From positions 80,148-144,147 of IMG/VR virus record IMGVR_UViG_3300032401_000690: a stretch of DNA of 64,000 nt; one strand, given 5' to 3'. The notes beneath the pieces were generated by a model that was not told where the DNA came from, ran no database searches, and saw only the letters and a list, made by a program, of their open reading frames with translations. Position 1 is the stretch's first letter; each line of letters begins with the position of its first letter. Shown piece by piece: positions 4,569 to 64,000 of the stretch. The DNA comes from a virus. A program made the position numbers and the translations under genes.

Positions 4569-6089
4569 ATGAAAATAGAACTTAAATGTACCCATTGTAA
4601 TCAATTATTCACAACGGATTATAAACACAGAGATAAACAATTTTGTGATAGAACTTGTTATTTTAATTATGCAAGAGAAAATAAATTACTCGGTAAAACA
4701 AAGGATCCTAATGTTAGAGAAGAAAGAGAGTGCGTTCAATGTGGAATTAATTTTACTGAAAGAATAAAATATGAACGTAAACTATGTTCCAATGAGTGTA
4801 GAGAAAATTGGCAATTAATTGAATCTAATAAAAACAATAGAATAGATAAATCAAAAAAGAAACTATTGGAAAAATATGGTGTTGACTCAATATTCAAATT
4901 AGATGATTTTAAAAAAAATAAATCTCCAAGGTTTTTTGAAAAATATGGTGTTTATCACCCAATGCTTGTACCAAAATTTGTTTCAAAACTTCAAGACACA
5001 ATACGGAAAAAACATTTAATTAATTTAATACCAAAATTAGAAGATAAAAAAATTGAACTATTAGATGATTATGTGACAAATAAATGTGGTAGTACTTCAT
5101 ATGTGTACAATTTTAAATGTAAGATTTGTGATAATATCTTTAGTAGTACCGTAATGGGTTCGGGTAAAATCCCCATATGCCGTAAATGTTATCCAATAAT
5201 TAAAAATTCAAATTTAGAACAAATCATTAAAGATTTTTTAAATAAAAAAAACATTAAACACATAGATGGTGATAGGACAATATTAGAAGGGAAAGAAATT
5301 GATATTTTTTTACCTGAATTTAATTTAGGTATTGAAATTAATGGTAATTACTTTCATTCAGAGTTAGGTGGGGATAAAACAAAATTTTACCACATTAATA
5401 AAACAACTTTATCAAATAATAAAAACACAACATTAATACATTTTTATGAAGATGAGATATTGTTAAAAACGGATATTGTGATTTCAAAATTATCAAGTAA
5501 ATTAAATTTAAATAACACAATTTACGGTAGAAAGTGTGTTATTAAAGAAATCACTAAAAAAGAATCAACTTTTTTTTTAAATGAAAATCATTTACAAGGT
5601 AATACAATTGATAAAATTAGATATGGACTTTTTTATGAAAATAATTTAGTGTCGGTAATGACGTTTGGTAAAAAAAGAAAATCGTTAGGAAATAAAATTA
5701 AAAATGATGGGGAATACGAGTTGGTTAGATTTTGTAATAAAAAATTCATAAATGTGGTGGGGGGATTTTCAAAAATTTTAAAACATTTTATAAAGTTACA
5801 TTCCCCAATCAAAATAGAAACTTTTGCCGATATTCGTTGGTCAGGGGTTAACTCATTAAAAACAGTTTACCACAAAAATAATTTTACATATGTAAGACAA
5901 ACACCACCCAATTATTGGTATATTAAAACGGATAAATATATTAATAGACAACATAGATTCTCATTTAGAAAAGATGTATTAGTAAGAGAGGGGTACGATA
6001 AAGAATTGACTGAATGGGATATTATGAAATTAAAAGGTTATGATAGAATATGGGATTGTGGGTCATTAAAATATGAACTTATTTTATAA
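4569..6089 (+). CDS. Free-standing homing endonuclease, Vsr-like nuclease with zinc fingers
   Basis: The 506-residue protein starts with Cys-pair zinc-binding units (CTHC...FCDRTC, CVQCG...LCSNEC, then CKIC...CRKC near residue 185-205). Around residues 245-300 comes a Vsr/EDxHD-type nuclease core: EIDIFLPEFNLGIEINGNYFH followed by a His-containing helix and the strand TTLIHFYEDE. This order is typical of phage-borne homing endonucleases related to I-Bth0305I. The C-terminal 190 residues (ENHLQG, ELVRFC, FADIRWSG) are a conserved companion region of the same group. It sits alone between two terminators with its own box, as expected for an element inserted between the sheath and HAD genes. Mobility is inferred from family membership, not shown. 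Confidence 0.82.
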   Translation: MKIELKCTHCNQLFTTDYKHRDKQFCDRTCYFNYARENKLLGKTKDPNVREERECVQCGINFTERIKYERKLCSNECRENWQLIESNKNNRIDKSKKKLLEKYGVDSIFKLDDFKKNKSPRFFEKYGVYHPMLVPKFVSKLQDTIRKKHLINLIPKLEDKKIELLDDYVTNKCGSTSYVYNFKCKICDNIFSSTVMGSGKIPICRKCYPIIKNSNLEQIIKDFLNKKNIKHIDGDRTILEGKEIDIFLPEFNLGIEINGNYFHSELGGDKTKFYHINKTTLSNNKNTTLIHFYEDEILLKTDIVISKLSSKLNLNNTIYGRKCVIKEITKKESTFFLNENHLQGNTIDKIRYGLFYENNLVSVMTFGKKRKSLGNKIKNDGEYELVRFCNKKFINVVGGFSKILKHFIKLHSPIKIETFADIRWSGVNSLKTVYHKNNFTYVRQTPPNYWYIKTDKYINRQHRFSFRKDVLVREGYDKELTEWDIMKLKGYDRIWDCGSLKYELIL

Positions 6090-54915: not shown

Positions 54916-56466
54916 ATGCCAAATTGTTATTGTTTAGAATTTAGTTTTGCTAAAGTTAGTGAATATGACTTAACCTACACTAATTGTAGTGGAAATACTG
55001 TCACAGAAACATTTTTAAGTGGAACAACATATAATATATGTAGTCAGGATTTAGATCCGATCACATCTTGTCTTGATATTGTCTTTGAAGTAAAAGGATT
55101 ATGTATTGACGGAGATTGTCCCCAACAATTAATTAAATATCAAAATGAATGTGATGTGATAACGATATTCCCTATGGGAGTTCAGTGTTACGTTACACAA
55201 CCAACTAACTCAATAACATACAATGGATCGGCAACATTACAAATAACAGGTGGAACTCCACCATATCACGTAATGTGGGATAATGGGAATATATCATCAA
55301 CAATATCAAATTTAGGGCCTGGTAGTTATGGATCAACGGTGGTTGATTTTTATGGTGATTTTACGGCAAACACTATTTGTGTTTTAACGGGAGTTACGAT
55401 AAGTCCAACACCAACACCTACACCAACACCAACACCAATACCAACGTTTGGTGATTTATGTTTAGTTGTGAAAGGTAGAAAGACTGAAAAAGTATCTTTT
55501 ATGGAAGTGATTAACTTTAATTATAATGGGTATGTTAATGGAAAACCATCGTGGATCTCTGACGACACATTATATACGATTGAATGGGTTACATTAACTA
55601 ATCAATGGGAAATTATAGGTTGGACAATAGGGTCAATTATAAATATTAACCCAATTTATCCACCTCTAACAGGATGGCAAATATTGGGGACACAATATCC
55701 ATATGTTGTAACAGAATTAACAGTTTCTAATGGTAATTGTGGTAGTTTGGATATATTAAGATATGATTTAACGGTTAATCAACCAACTTGTAAATGTAAT
55801 GGTAGTATAATCTTTAATGTGATTGATGGTGTTCCACCATATCAATATAGTATTGATGGTTTAACATATTTTAATTCGCCAATTTTTAATAATTTATGTG
55901 ATGGATTTTACCCAACTAAAGTTAATGATTCTTCAGGTCAAACATTTACTGAAGTGGTAACATTAAATATTCCGCCACCACCACAAACATATTCAGTTTC
56001 ACTATTGTTAAATGTTGTTGGAAATAGTTTTAGTGTTAATGTTACCCCGCCATTACCTCTTGGTGCATCACTTATCTTTGATTTAGTACATAAATCTGAT
56101 TTTACAGTTGCTCCAACTATAGGCGTGGCAACATACAATAATGTTGTTACGGTTAATGTTAATAGTGTTTCTACACCGTATAGTACAACATCTGTTGTTG
56201 GAACATCAACACTTTTATCAAATAAACTTTGTATTGGGGGAACACAAACCAATACGATAACAACAAATATTTGGAATAATCTAACTATGGTTCAAGGAAC
56301 AACTATTAATGGTACGATAACTAATTCTGTTATACCAATAACCCCATTAGTTGCTTGTTATAGTGTTAAGTCAGGATATAATTTAATCTTAGATAATGTT
56401 AGATTGATTGATTGTCCTTGTTGTAATTTAGTGATAAAATTACCGGCAGGTACGAGTAAAGTTTGA
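54916..56466 (+). CDS. Tail appendage protein with Thr-Pro linker (516 aa)
   Basis: The N-terminal 90 residues are Cys-rich (CSQDLDPITSCLDIV, CIDGDCPQQ). A SprB-like unit follows at about residues 100-160 (GSATLQITGGTPPYHVMWD, then NLGPGSYGSTVVD), then a threonine-proline linker near 165-180 (SPTPTPTPTPTPIPT), then a second module with another SprB-like part (CKCNGSIIFNVIDGVPPYQYSIDG) and a Cys-rich end. Such linkers separate beta domains in fibre and spike proteins. It has its own promoter box. Likely a minor fibre or base appendage; no family recognised. Confidence 0.62.
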   Translation: MPNCYCLEFSFAKVSEYDLTYTNCSGNTVTETFLSGTTYNICSQDLDPITSCLDIVFEVKGLCIDGDCPQQLIKYQNECDVITIFPMGVQCYVTQPTNSITYNGSATLQITGGTPPYHVMWDNGNISSTISNLGPGSYGSTVVDFYGDFTANTICVLTGVTISPTPTPTPTPTPIPTFGDLCLVVKGRKTEKVSFMEVINFNYNGYVNGKPSWISDDTLYTIEWVTLTNQWEIIGWTIGSIININPIYPPLTGWQILGTQYPYVVTELTVSNGNCGSLDILRYDLTVNQPTCKCNGSIIFNVIDGVPPYQYSIDGLTYFNSPIFNNLCDGFYPTKVNDSSGQTFTEVVTLNIPPPPQTYSVSLLLNVVGNSFSVNVTPPLPLGASLIFDLVHKSDFTVAPTIGVATYNNVVTVNVNSVSTPYSTTSVVGTSTLLSNKLCIGGTQTNTITTNIWNNLTMVQGTTINGTITNSVIPITPLVACYSVKSGYNLILDNVRLIDCPCCNLVIKLPAGTSKV

Positions 56467-56494
56467 TAAATAAATAATAAAATTAGATATACAA

Positions 56495-56502
56495 TATTTA
56501 TA
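56495..56502 (+). promoter_or_regulatory. TATTTATA box upstream of the 813-residue structural gene
   Basis: CAATATTTATATAACAAATGG: the box ends 6 bases before the ATG at 56509. Confidence 0.45.
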
Positions 56503-56508
56503 TAACAA

Positions 56509-58950
56509 ATGGCATATATATTAAAAAATACTTCGGGGTTAATCAACACAAGAGTAACTGATACGGGAAGACAAAAGTTATCCGAAGGTAATTTCAACAT
56601 ATCATATTTCCAAATTGGGGATAGTGAAGTTTCCTATAACGCATTACCGAGTAGTTATAATCAACCATATAGTGTTGTATTGGAACCACCATTTAATACT
56701 CAAAATAGTTCAGGTGTTCCCCAATCTAACAGACAAGCGGTTAAATATCCGTATTATGTTGATGGATCTGCGGGTAATACATATGGTATCCCTTATATGG
56801 ATTCTATAATTGAACCTGTATTTAATAGAGCACCACTTCGTGGGTTTTTTACGGGAAATACTACCGCAACAACTATTAGTTGGAGTGCATTAACTAATGA
56901 TAATTATGTTGTTAGTCCGAACTACCTTGTTGATATGTCTACATTAAGTGGAACGAATGTTGTGAATTTAATATATTCAGGTCCTAACACATTTAATCAA
57001 ACCACACCATCTATTGGCGATTTTATAACGATGTTTTTTGATGGTAAGGGTAATATGAATTCGGCTTGTTATAACTTGCCGACTCCAACACCAACGGCAT
57101 CTATTGGTAGTACGGCAACTCCAACACCAACACCTAGTTCTACTAGTAATATTGATTGTTCAACACCTACACCAACGCCTACACCAACAAAGACACCTTG
57201 TTTAACACCATCGTCAAGTCCTATATGTCCTTTACCTCCACCGGCAGATTGTTATTTGGATGTAAGTAGTTGTTATCCGATTATGACTTATAGAATTGTT
57301 GATGTATGTAATACTTATACAATAACTTTAGATAGGGCAACACCTGATTTTTCAGCATTTTCTGCGGGATGTTATTCAACAACAATAATCTATCCTGCAA
57401 CGATGACACCAATTTACGATAGTATAACACCGGGACCACATTGGAAAACGGATGTTATTAATTTTGAATCGGTATGTGATGTGGATCAATTTGATGTTAA
57501 GATATGGAATATGAATATTCCTTGGACTGAGAATCCTGCGGGGTTAAACTCTAACTTATATATGGATTATACTAAATTTGGTTCGGTAGATTATATTGGA
57601 TCAAAAGAATATTTTGGATATAATTCAAGTTTGGGTCAGTCGGATACAAGTTCTGTTTTTTATATAAACTCATTTAATGAGAAAATTGTGGTTCAACCAA
57701 AGGAACAAAAGGCGGTTGCAATCATTCATTATACAAATCAAACAATTGATTTCTTCTATGGTGAAAAATTTGCACTTGAACCATATGATCCAACAAACCC
57801 TGAAGATACTACAGGTCAAGCAAGAAACTTTAAATTACACATTCCTTGGTTGATGTGGCATAAAAATCCTGAATGTTGTTATGGTGAGACTTTTTGGGTT
57901 GATCCTGCAAATTTTGAGGATAAGGATTTGTTCACCGTTCAGTATATTGAATCACTTAAGAACACTGGAATGAACCAACCTGGTATTAGATATTACCATT
58001 TATGGGATACGCACCCAAATGCTGATGGTAACCCAAGTAGAATTGGTAAGGTATTCCCTGATAGTAAGATTATTATTATTGATGATGAAGAAGTTGTTGC
58101 GGCAATGTCTTATAAGTCAAATAGAAATTGGACTCTACCAGCTCCTCAAATATCGTTAATCACACCAAATACTTGTGGAACACCTACAACGACTGTGGAT
58201 GGTATCTTAACGGGTAATAATGAGACAATGTTTGTTACTTATAGATTAACGAATGAGAGTGGATTCACAAATTCATTACATTGTAATTATTACTCAAAAG
58301 TTGTTGGTAATAATAACGATTGTAATCCTGATACATCTAAAAATGTTGGGATTAGATTTGGTGCCGAATTTAATTGTTTATCACAACCAGGATTTACTGC
58401 GGGAACCGAATGTTCGGTTGCGTGTAATGTACCTACAGGATTTTATGGTAATAAGTTTGAGATATTATGTCAGAAAGTTATTACGGGGACTAGACCTGAT
58501 CCTACGGGGTGGGTATTGATTGATTTTACGGACGCAATTAGTGCAACGACAGTAAATGGTTATTTAACACAATCGGGGATCACAGGGACGACCTTTGTTA
58601 TAACTCCTGAACTTTATAGTAGTGGATCAACATATGTACTTAATGATTATATTGATATGGTGGATCTTGGAACTACAGGTCAGACACTTAATTTTGGTGA
58701 TGAGTTCTATTTTTATGGTGGAATTGAAACCGATATTCAAGCAACAATATATGAAATGAAATATAAAGTTAATCTTGGGGCTGCTGAATTCCAAAATACT
58801 TCTAACCCAACTTGGACTCAAGGAACCAAATCATATATTACTGAAATATCGTTATTAGATAAAAATAAAGACATTCTTGTGGTATCTAAATTACAATCAC
58901 CAGTGTTAAGACAGGGGATACAACAATTCTTGGTGAAGTTGGATTTTTAA
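56509..58950 (+). CDS. Large tail appendage protein with Thr-Pro linker (813 aa)
   Basis: The protein starts with a domain that looks like a tail/fibre attachment module (MAYILKNTSGLINTRVTDTG, SEGNFNISYFQIGDS). Residues about 190-245 form a Thr/Pro/Ser linker with Cys (PTPTPTASIGSTATPTPTPS, CSTPTPTPTPTKTPC). Two or more beta-rich domains follow (DYTKFGSVDYIGSKEYFG, YFYDGEKF-like FFYGEKFALEPYDP), with a conserved-looking HLWDTHPNADGNPSRIGKVF. No enzymatic motif is obvious. It is the last gene of the right-pointing structural block. Role as virion component is inferred from composition and neighbours. Confidence 0.65.
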   Translation: MAYILKNTSGLINTRVTDTGRQKLSEGNFNISYFQIGDSEVSYNALPSSYNQPYSVVLEPPFNTQNSSGVPQSNRQAVKYPYYVDGSAGNTYGIPYMDSIIEPVFNRAPLRGFFTGNTTATTISWSALTNDNYVVSPNYLVDMSTLSGTNVVNLIYSGPNTFNQTTPSIGDFITMFFDGKGNMNSACYNLPTPTPTASIGSTATPTPTPSSTSNIDCSTPTPTPTPTKTPCLTPSSSPICPLPPPADCYLDVSSCYPIMTYRIVDVCNTYTITLDRATPDFSAFSAGCYSTTIIYPATMTPIYDSITPGPHWKTDVINFESVCDVDQFDVKIWNMNIPWTENPAGLNSNLYMDYTKFGSVDYIGSKEYFGYNSSLGQSDTSSVFYINSFNEKIVVQPKEQKAVAIIHYTNQTIDFFYGEKFALEPYDPTNPEDTTGQARNFKLHIPWLMWHKNPECCYGETFWVDPANFEDKDLFTVQYIESLKNTGMNQPGIRYYHLWDTHPNADGNPSRIGKVFPDSKIIIIDDEEVVAAMSYKSNRNWTLPAPQISLITPNTCGTPTTTVDGILTGNNETMFVTYRLTNESGFTNSLHCNYYSKVVGNNNDCNPDTSKNVGIRFGAEFNCLSQPGFTAGTECSVACNVPTGFYGNKFEILCQKVITGTRPDPTGWVLIDFTDAISATTVNGYLTQSGITGTTFVITPELYSSGSTYVLNDYIDMVDLGTTGQTLNFGDEFYFYGGIETDIQATIYEMKYKVNLGAAEFQNTSNPTWTQGTKSYITEISLLDKNKDILVVSKLQSPVLRQGIQQFLVKLDF

Positions 58951-59700: not shown

Positions 59701-60773
59701 TATGGGGTTGTTGATGATGGTGTTGGTGTTGGGGTTGGTGTTATACAAGGACAATCAACAAATACAACATTTATGTTAGTTCCACTAGGAACAGTCCAAG
59801 ATTTAATTGTTATAATAGAATTACCACCTATGTTATTAGTTTGTGGAACGCCATTACTACAATTAGTTGTGGTAAATGTGTTGGCAGAAAATAGTAAATT
59901 GGTAACAATATATTCACAACATACTGAAGGTGTTGATGAAGGTGTTACCGTCGGTGTCATTGTTGGTGTCATTGTTGGTGTTTGTGATGGTATTGGTAAA
60001 CAAGGACTACAATCAGGACCATACTCAATATTTAACGATACAACGTCAGATCCACTAATGTTATCAACAACCCCAATGTAAGTAACGCAAATATCGTTCC
60101 CATTAATTGTTGCACCATATACATACTCAACAACAGGAGTTCCTCCAGTTGGGTTTAGAACAACATCGGTTGTAGAATAGATAAATCCTGAACTACAATC
60201 TCTAAATTGTTTACTGTTTGCACATCTGATATAATCATCAACGGTATTAAATATTACTAACCCATTATAATTACAAGGTCTTAAAATACTTGCAGATTGG
60301 GTTGGTGTGACTGTAGGTGTTGGTGTAGGTGTTGGTGTATATGTAACACCACTAACTACGAGTGAAACTCCACCACAAGGATTAGTTGAGGATGGTGTCA
60401 TTGTTGGTGTCATTGTTGGGGTAACGGTTGGTGTTACTGTGGGGGTAACGGTAACCTCACAATCAAAAAGACCGTCAAAATCTATATTACAAGCGGCGGT
60501 TGGTGTTGGTGTTGGTGATGGACAAGGTCCTGGTCCAAAAAGTTCATCACATAAGTCAGGACATAAACTTGAGCAAGGTGATTTACCAAATAATAAACAA
60601 GTTGGATCTCCTAATGTGGATGCTAAACACCATTGTGTTTGTCCCGTGGAGTAATAAATAGTGTAGGTATCACCTGTGTAATAATCATACCCATCATAAG
60701 TTCCTGCGGAAAAATATCCACCATCATAATTTGTTCCGGTACCACTAATACAATATTCTAATAAACAAGGCAT
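59700..60773 (-). CDS. Cys-rich tail appendage protein with Thr-Pro linkers, inverted
   Basis: Reading leftwards from the ATG at 60773 (MPCLLEYCISG) gives 357 residues; the frame's earlier ATG at 60806 overlaps the previous gene. The protein is divided by three threonine-proline linkers (PSPTPTPTAACN, VTPTVTPTVTPTMTPTMTPS, QTPTMTPTMTPTVTPSST) into small Cys-rich beta domains, and it ends with another Pro/Thr run. Architecture matches the right-pointing 516- and 813-residue appendage proteins. The start lies 2 bases after the previous stop codon, so it forms a two-gene inverted operon. Role in host recognition inferred. Confidence 0.72.
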   Translation of the reverse strand: MPCLLEYCISGTGTNYDGGYFSAGTYDGYDYYTGDTYTIYYSTGQTQWCLASTLGDPTCLLFGKSPCSSLCPDLCDELFGPGPCPSPTPTPTAACNIDFDGLFDCEVTVTPTVTPTVTPTMTPTMTPSSTNPCGGVSLVVSGVTYTPTPTPTPTVTPTQSASILRPCNYNGLVIFNTVDDYIRCANSKQFRDCSSGFIYSTTDVVLNPTGGTPVVEYVYGATINGNDICVTYIGVVDNISGSDVVSLNIEYGPDCSPCLPIPSQTPTMTPTMTPTVTPSSTPSVCCEYIVTNLLFSANTFTTTNCSNGVPQTNNIGGNSIITIKSWTVPSGTNINVVFVDCPCITPTPTPTPSSTTP

Positions 60774-63601: not shown

Positions 63602-63898
63602 ATGAATAAACAAGGAATTGTATTAAAGTGGTTAAACAAAGAGTTTGGTAATTTAACTCCGGTGGTTAAAAATGATAAAACATTTTATGTTGATAAGGAC
63701 AGATTGCCGTTATTTTACTATTACCAGGATTCAAAAAATAGGTATGTTTATATAAATTACGAAAGAATTTGGGTATTTTTTGAATCCATTTTTGGTCTGA
63801 ATTACTTGCAAACACAGGAGATTCTGAAGGTATGGTTGGGGGAGACCTATAATTTGAGGGGAGTCACACCTAAGTACTTTAAATCTGAATCACTTTAA
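63602..63898 (+). CDS. Hypothetical protein whose C-terminus is encoded by a CRISPR-like repeat
   Basis: I start at 63602 (MNKQGIVLKWLNKEFG); the frame's ATG at 63554 lies upstream of the promoter box. The 98-residue protein has a small alpha/beta appearance (KTFYVDKDRLPLFYYYQDSKN, then YINYERIWVFFES in parts), no motif. Its residues about 78-90 (WLGETYNLRGVTP) are encoded by the first copy of a 36-base repeat that continues outside the gene. Either the repeats grew into the gene or the gene was copied to make the repeat. Function unknown. Confidence 0.65.
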   Translation: MNKQGIVLKWLNKEFGNLTPVVKNDKTFYVDKDRLPLFYYYQDSKNRYVYINYERIWVFFESIFGLNYLQTQEILKVWLGETYNLRGVTPKYFKSESL

Positions 63899-64000
63899 TA
63901 GTTGGAAGAGACCTATAATTTGAGGGGAGTCACACCTAACAATTCAAAGTTCCAATGTGGAATTTCCTGTTGGAAGAGACCTATAATTTGAGGGGAGTCA
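63835..64000. CRISPR. CRISPR-like repeats at the window edge: 36-base repeats, 30- and 32-base spacers
   Basis: Three copies of a 36-base repeat (GTTGGAAGAGACC - TATAATTTGAGGGG - AGTCACACC): 63835-63870 (two changes, AA to GG), 63901-63936 (exact) and 63969-64000 (exact, cut by the window end). Spacers are unlike each other: 63871-63900 and 63937-63968. Both spacers begin TAA, so the repeat may be 39 bases. Repeat length and spacer size match CRISPR arrays, and the ends GTTGGAA and TCACAxC with a GAGGG core resemble type VI-B (Cas13b) repeats as I remember them. No cas gene is in the window. Only two and a part units are visible. Confidence 0.55.

Follow-up and report, generated by a model that had tools for sequence, protein, structure and literature searches.

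The window analysed here, a stretch of 64,000 nucleotides, covers bases 80,148-144,147 of an IMG/VR virus record that belongs to a phage with a contractile tail and replication genes like those of T4; the record encodes a tail sheath, a UvsX-like recombinase, a DnaB-like helicase, a primase and a ribonucleotide reductase. At the right-hand end of the window (63835-64000) lie three copies of a 36-nt unit, separated by spacers of 30 and 32 nt. The contig, 144,147 bases long, stops together with the window inside the third copy, of which 32 nt remain. The features of the locus are as follows.

63602..63898, plus strand: phage gene of 98 aa, MNKQGIVLKWLNKEFG...WLGETYNLRGVTPKYFKSESL and stop, its body in the position of a CRISPR leader and its 3′-end forming repeat 1
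63835..63870, plus strand: repeat 1 (R1), 36 nt, GTTGGGGGAGACCTATAATTTGAGGGGAGTCACACC, coding, read in frame as W-L-G-E-T-Y-N-L-R-G-V-T-P
63871..63900, plus strand: spacer 1, 30 nt, TAAGTACTTTAAATCTGAATCACTTTAATA, with the stop codon of the gene inside it
63901..63936, plus strand: repeat 2 (R2), 36 nt, GTTGGAAGAGACCTATAATTTGAGGGGAGTCACACC
63937..63968, plus strand: spacer 2, 32 nt, TAACAATTCAAAGTTCCAATGTGGAATTTCCT
63969..64000, plus strand: repeat 3 (R3), first 32 nt, cut by the contig end

An earlier, sequence-only reading had taken this locus for a CRISPR-like array encoded by the phage, with repeats of 36 nt and unique spacers of about 30 nt, and the anatomy confirms that description. What it had missed is that the open reading frame 63602-63898 of the ORF list continues in frame through R1, which forms its 3′-end, with the third base of the last proline codon supplied by spacer 1. 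It had also missed three further arrays on the same contig (G000:C1:73.7-74.8 kb, minus strand), in which a paralogous gene again supplies its 3′-end as the first repeat, followed by spacers of 30-33 nt and a terminal repeat truncated to about 21 nt.

We find that the same array design recurs in many contigs of related uncultured large phages, as revealed by pattern and protein scans of IMG/VR. Nineteen phage records hold 54 arrays or single repeats, about ten of them dispersed over a single 296-kb record (G011), and additional IMG/VR scans yielded further ones; a period scan without bias over the 19 records and the window recovered the same arrays, plus unrelated coding repeats. All 68 analysable arrays (translatable and distinct) start at the 3′-end of one gene family. 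The number of full repeats per array ranges from one to seven, single-spacer units consisting of one full and one truncated repeat. Across lineages the terminal repeat almost invariably breaks off after about 18-21 nt, with various sequences following it (e.g. L007:2636-2653, minus strand, and L012:4428).

The array-bearing gene family is a domain of about 100 aa with many copies per genome (e.g. in L007 and L134), often starting with MKIIITESS and in some copies fused to other proteins, and arrays adjoin nearly every copy, also in lineages with diverged repeats. The array-bearing gene had no match in Pfam, PHROG or NCBIfam, and an AlphaFold model of the protein, of moderate quality (pLDDT 69), had none in the PDB; its structural relatives in BFVD are only uncharacterised phage proteins from uncultured Caudovirales. 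The repeat differs by phage lineage, and the peptide it encodes is always W-L-x-E/T-x-Y-x-L/I-x-G-x-T-P or near to it. The repeat boundary falls two bases into the proline codon, and the third base, coming from the spacer, is free (synonymous identity 0.29). Synonymous codon conservation is about 0.80 in R1 vs. about 0.66 upstream, as a rough column average rather than a formal test.

The spacers behave as those of a CRISPR array. The 163 unique spacers have a mean length of 30.22 nt (SD 1.18), and within arrays they are no more alike than random pairs (identity 0.292 vs. 0.284). L215 and L220, two contigs from different samples with 99.4% identity over 3.3 kb, have four gene-distal spacers in common, whereas their first, gene-proximal spacers (31 and 33 nt) are wholly different; a third contig, L309, has the L220 version. 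Since near-identical contigs differ only in the gene-proximal spacer, we conclude that spacers enter beside the gene, and that they have done so recently. Across related phages, too, gene-distal spacers are kept (s44/s66/s70; s8/s71) and gene-proximal ones are not. The polarity first proposed, with the copy nearest the gene as the old end, is therefore reversed: the gene side is the young end, and the truncated repeat of about 21 nt lies at the far end. R1 and R2 are identical in 27 of the 54 arrays. In the copies of L007 and the window, repeats near the gene tend to match its own 3′-end while older ones diverge, as if each new repeat copied the gene end.

That repeat 1 is the gene end is also what one would expect of a tandem duplication of the 3′-end of the gene, with no CRISPR machinery involved, and 36-nt repeats, without spacers, are a feature of type III toxin-antitoxin loci. 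Both candidates were rejected because the spacers are unrelated to one another and many of them match bacterial genes, as described below. The spacers furthermore stay at a length of 30 nt, and their turnover is confined to one end. Constant spacers in related phages, which the sequence-only reading had named as the mark of a duplicated gene end, are contradicted by the exchange of the gene-proximal spacer between contigs of 99.4% identity. We regard the duplication as scarcely credible; the 36-nt repeat is real and not a duplicated gene end.

The repeat was compared with genuine type VI-B repeats from Bergeyella, Riemerella, Capnocytophaga, Porphyromonas gulae and two more Cas13b-bearing genomes. 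Without gaps, the phage repeat is identical to the Bergeyella Cas13b repeat at 24 and to the Capnocytophaga one at 25 of 36 positions, which supports the VI-B resemblance proposed in the sequence-only reading, and the G020-type repeat has its first ten bases in common with one genuine VI-B repeat. When the encoded peptides were recoded synonymously with the phages' own codons, the mean was 18.6 matches (SD 1.4) vs. the 25 observed, a value reached in none of 6,000 trials (P < 1/6000 for two repeat types). As the recoded peptides never reach 25, the main repeats are VI-B-like beyond what the protein needs, and an explanation of the likeness by the peptide alone is rejected for the main repeat types; the divergent repeat of G035/G036 is weakly VI-B-like (19/36, P 0.018). 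In three phage genomes the 36-mers with at least 24 of 36 matches to VI-B repeats are exclusively the array repeats, and chance is excluded.

The folding of the repeat RNA differs from that of type VI-B. The outer GUUG..CAAC helix, for which five genuine repeats give a pairing probability P(1-36) of at least 0.92, has one of at most 0.02 in the phages, and the predicted folds reach -2 to -6 kcal/mol in the phages vs. -8 to -15 in genuine VI-B. Because the phage repeat RNA is without the VI-B fold, we favor a role at the DNA level, and the missing fold would indeed fit an integration site better than a Cas13b guide. Taken at the sequence level, these comparisons support a resemblance to type VI-B and do not support membership in it. 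Two Cas13b hosts have CRISPR repeats of 47 nt or 30 nt next to cas1, which we considered as another candidate and which are by eye unlike the phage repeat.

The sequence-only reading had suggested that the array could be used through host Cas13b against rival phages. The VI-B-like repeats, and the fact that mini-arrays of archaeal viruses are known to serve against rival viruses (PMC6858448; PMC11656645), would suit this suggestion, which is not borne out by the spacers. When compared with phage records and relatives, the phage's own genome included, they scored no better than a reversed-spacer control, and 50,697 phage records gave marginal matches only. Four spacers scanned through IMG/VR matched arrays only, or nothing. 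The one marginal phage-record match that could be read is, in reverse complement, the thymidylate synthase motif YQRSADLF (thyA), and this reading led us to search bacterial genomes next, where the spacers match chromosomal genes instead. We consider a weapon against rival phages very improbable.

At a threshold of E <= 0.05, 98 spacers had matches in 99 of 398 Flavobacteriales genomes, vs. 14 of 396 for the same spacers reversed, and the best E values were 6.4e-5 and 4e-3, respectively. Real spacers recur at one conserved gene in many genomes, as with one spacer that matches purA in more than 20, and none of the reversed control spacers recurred at one site in several genomes. Two further searches with other spacer sets gave more targets. 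The target genes named by NCBIfam comprise purA, dnaK, thiL, rnz, leuS, miaB, an acyl-CoA ligase, tig, nrdA and purC, as well as paaA, a lolCE-like gene, phoH2, an msbA-like gene, hemL, lpd, pnp, a response regulator and ADH; thyA is also among the targets. In the G007 phage, spacers from two separate arrays match two sites in purA. With respect to the coding strand about 13 spacers are sense and 12 antisense, a few of these assignments being less certain. The matched targets are homologous genes on Flavobacteriales or Bacteroidia chromosomes, with 24-28 matching bases, and are to be read as homologs of the true sources rather than as the host's own protospacers; neither an upstream TTTA nor another spacer-acquisition motif was seen in the flanks of these homologs. 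As such a search favors conserved genes, we make no claim on preferred targets. For most spacers the searches found no source, and this includes both spacers of the window: spacer 1 had no confident source among the phage and bacterial genomes searched, and the core of spacer 2 had no exact match in IMG/VR. Judged from the matches obtained, many of the spacers derive from the bacterial chromosome, not from rival viruses.

The sequence-only reading had also proposed a search for cas13b and cas1, and neither was found: Cas1 was absent from 24 phage records and Cas13b from eight large ones; the latter eight are incomplete sequences, and a cas13b gene of the host could act in trans. Cas13b itself is rare, occurring in 4 of 395 Bacteroidia genomes, and a scan with the VI-B consensus returned known Cas13b hosts and chance matches only. 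The core of the repeat is absent from the GTDB collection of one bacterial genome per species, in which the host may be unrepresented. A repeat that is the same as that of the host, a feature of mini-arrays, is therefore not seen here, as no GTDB species genome has the repeat core.

Taken together, we think it probable that the phages carry mini-CRISPR arrays with a new layout, in which the 3′-end of a gene is the first repeat and which are filled in trans, with host DNA, by the adaptation proteins of the host. As far as sequence can tell, the arrays have the repeat and spacer anatomy of CRISPR, have grown recently and at one end, and carry VI-B-like repeats. We suggest that a phage gene present in many copies has a 3′-end that would double as the first repeat of an array, the gene body replacing the leader, and that pieces of bacterial chromosomal DNA of about 30 nt would be inserted beside the gene, the 36-nt repeat being duplicated each time. 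As the phage records contain no cas1, we infer that host Cas1-Cas2 probably reads the gene end as leader and repeat and integrates spacers in trans. There is precedent for such a division of labor in Flavobacterium columnare, where the Cas1-Cas2 of a II-C system fills a VI-B array in trans, and where the VI-B arrays gain many spacers from the host genome with no bias for the targeting of mRNA (PMC8092290).

The arrays resemble, and depart from, several known systems. The mini-CRISPR arrays of Sulfolobales viruses and huge phages (PMC6858448; PMC7162821; PMC11656645) are also short, with unique spacers and presumed use of host Cas proteins, and are without cas genes, as seen here for Cas1 in 24 records and Cas13b in eight; host-targeting spacers have likewise been reported for huge phages (PMC7162821). 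Unlike in those arrays, the first repeat is here the coding end of a phage gene, the gene replaces the leader, there are many arrays per genome, the repeat is absent from the GTDB species genomes, and the spacers match bacterial chromosomes, not related viruses. With type VI-B the arrays have in common a 36-nt repeat, spacers of about 30 nt, 24-25 of 36 identical positions, growth at the upstream end and many spacers of self-genome origin, as in F. columnare (PMC8092290). They differ from it in that no cas13b was found in the records, the repeat RNA is without the conserved fold, the last repeat is about 21 nt, and most phage copies end in CACACC, not CACAAC. As with RNA anti-CRISPRs (PMC10651486), CRISPR repeats are mimicked by phages without cas genes, but those have neither acquired spacers nor arrays embedded in genes, the survey holds no type VI example, and inhibition by the arrays described here is putative. 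Off-target (neo-CRISPR) integration by Cas1-Cas2 would likewise give rise to arrays where a repeat-like sequence lies away from a CRISPR locus; the arrays described here differ in being inherited, in recurring at nearly all copies of a gene and in being kept across lineages.

On our analysis, the function of the arrays may be that of a decoy or that of a host-directed guide. With less assurance than for the steps above, we suggest that the phage benefits from the product, the likeliest role being that of a decoy and the next that of guides which direct an effector of the host at the host's own genes, or else that the product is a tolerated by-product of a gene end resembling a repeat. As a decoy, an idea that the sequence-only reading had also raised, the repeat would draw off integration by host Cas1-Cas2 or, in the form of RNA, capture a Cas13b-like effector of the host, and the content of the spacers would be irrelevant. 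The many repeat copies per genome, their VI-B likeness beyond coding need and the random orientation of the spacers point in this direction, and in VI-B systems crRNA derived from the first repeat ties up Cas13b and so lowers defence (PMC13187072), while solitary repeat units are known as RNA anti-CRISPRs for other types, with no type VI case in the survey (PMC10651486). On the other hand, the phage repeat RNA folds weakly and has no outer helix, no host with the repeat core was found among the GTDB species genomes, Cas13b is rare among Bacteroidia, and a pure sink should hold some phage-derived spacers, of which none was seen. We lean towards the decoy tentatively, at somewhat less than even confidence.

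Alternatively, transcripts of the arrays could be made into crRNAs that act with a host effector, or an unrecognised phage one, on host core genes or on the chromosome. This could explain why the spacers match host-type core genes, with purA hit twice from two arrays of one phage, and why no spacer matches its own phage or relatives, as the purging of self-targeting would predict; huge phages with host-targeting spacers are also known (PMC7162821). However, with about 13 sense and 12 antisense spacers, an effector that targets RNA could make no use of half of them, and the antisense ones would trigger Cas13 dormancy; the apparent targeting of core genes may be a sampling effect, as detection favors conserved genes, and cas13b is absent from the eight large records. 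We therefore regard such guides as doubtful. If the end of a gene that looks like a repeat were occasionally taken for an array by host Cas1-Cas2, spacers of host origin would arise in both orientations as a neutral by-product, much as F. columnare VI-B arrays gain many self-genome spacers (PMC8092290). That arrays lie at nearly every gene copy, also in lineages with diverged repeats, that R1 shows synonymous conservation and VI-B likeness beyond coding, and that the truncated terminal repeat is kept throughout, all speak against mere tolerance, which we judge unlikely. The complete chain, in which a phage gene end is an adaptation site, host machinery writes host DNA into the phage, and the arrays then act against the host as guides or as a sink for its machinery, is one we put forward as possible but rather doubtful in its entirety.

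If the preferred reading of host-filled arrays is correct, CRISPR adaptation would be seen to have written into the genomes of viruses in nature, both repeatedly and in recent time, at a repeat that also serves as protein-coding sequence. Decoys would represent a counter-defence against spacer acquisition or type VI, of which the published survey of RNA anti-CRISPRs holds no case, while guides would mean that phages gather host genes as targets; either use, if true, would represent a novel means by which a phage exploits or disarms CRISPR. The spacers could also point to the hosts of phages found only in metagenomes.

A few observations on the genomes themselves may be added. A simple CRISPR scan also catches 63-nt periodic coding repeats at G003:C1:9.6-12.7 kb and G011:C1:214-216 kb, which have the look of a leucine-rich-repeat protein. 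In the window, the genes at 59703-60773 (minus strand) and 54916-58950 (plus strand) encode proteins with long TPTPTP/PTPS runs, among large, probably virion-associated genes, and directly 3′ of the tail sheath gene lies a gene for a 505-aa protein (4569-6083, plus strand) with PHROG matches to homing/HNH endonucleases. Finally, one of the paralogous genes at the three further arrays of the window's contig (L007:2636-4129, minus strand, equal to G000:C1:74636-76129) encodes a protein of 497 aa in which the array-bearing domain forms the C-terminus and an Fe/Mn superoxide dismutase is present in full (Pfam E 1e-39), and the message of this phage superoxide dismutase thus ends in a CRISPR-like repeat.
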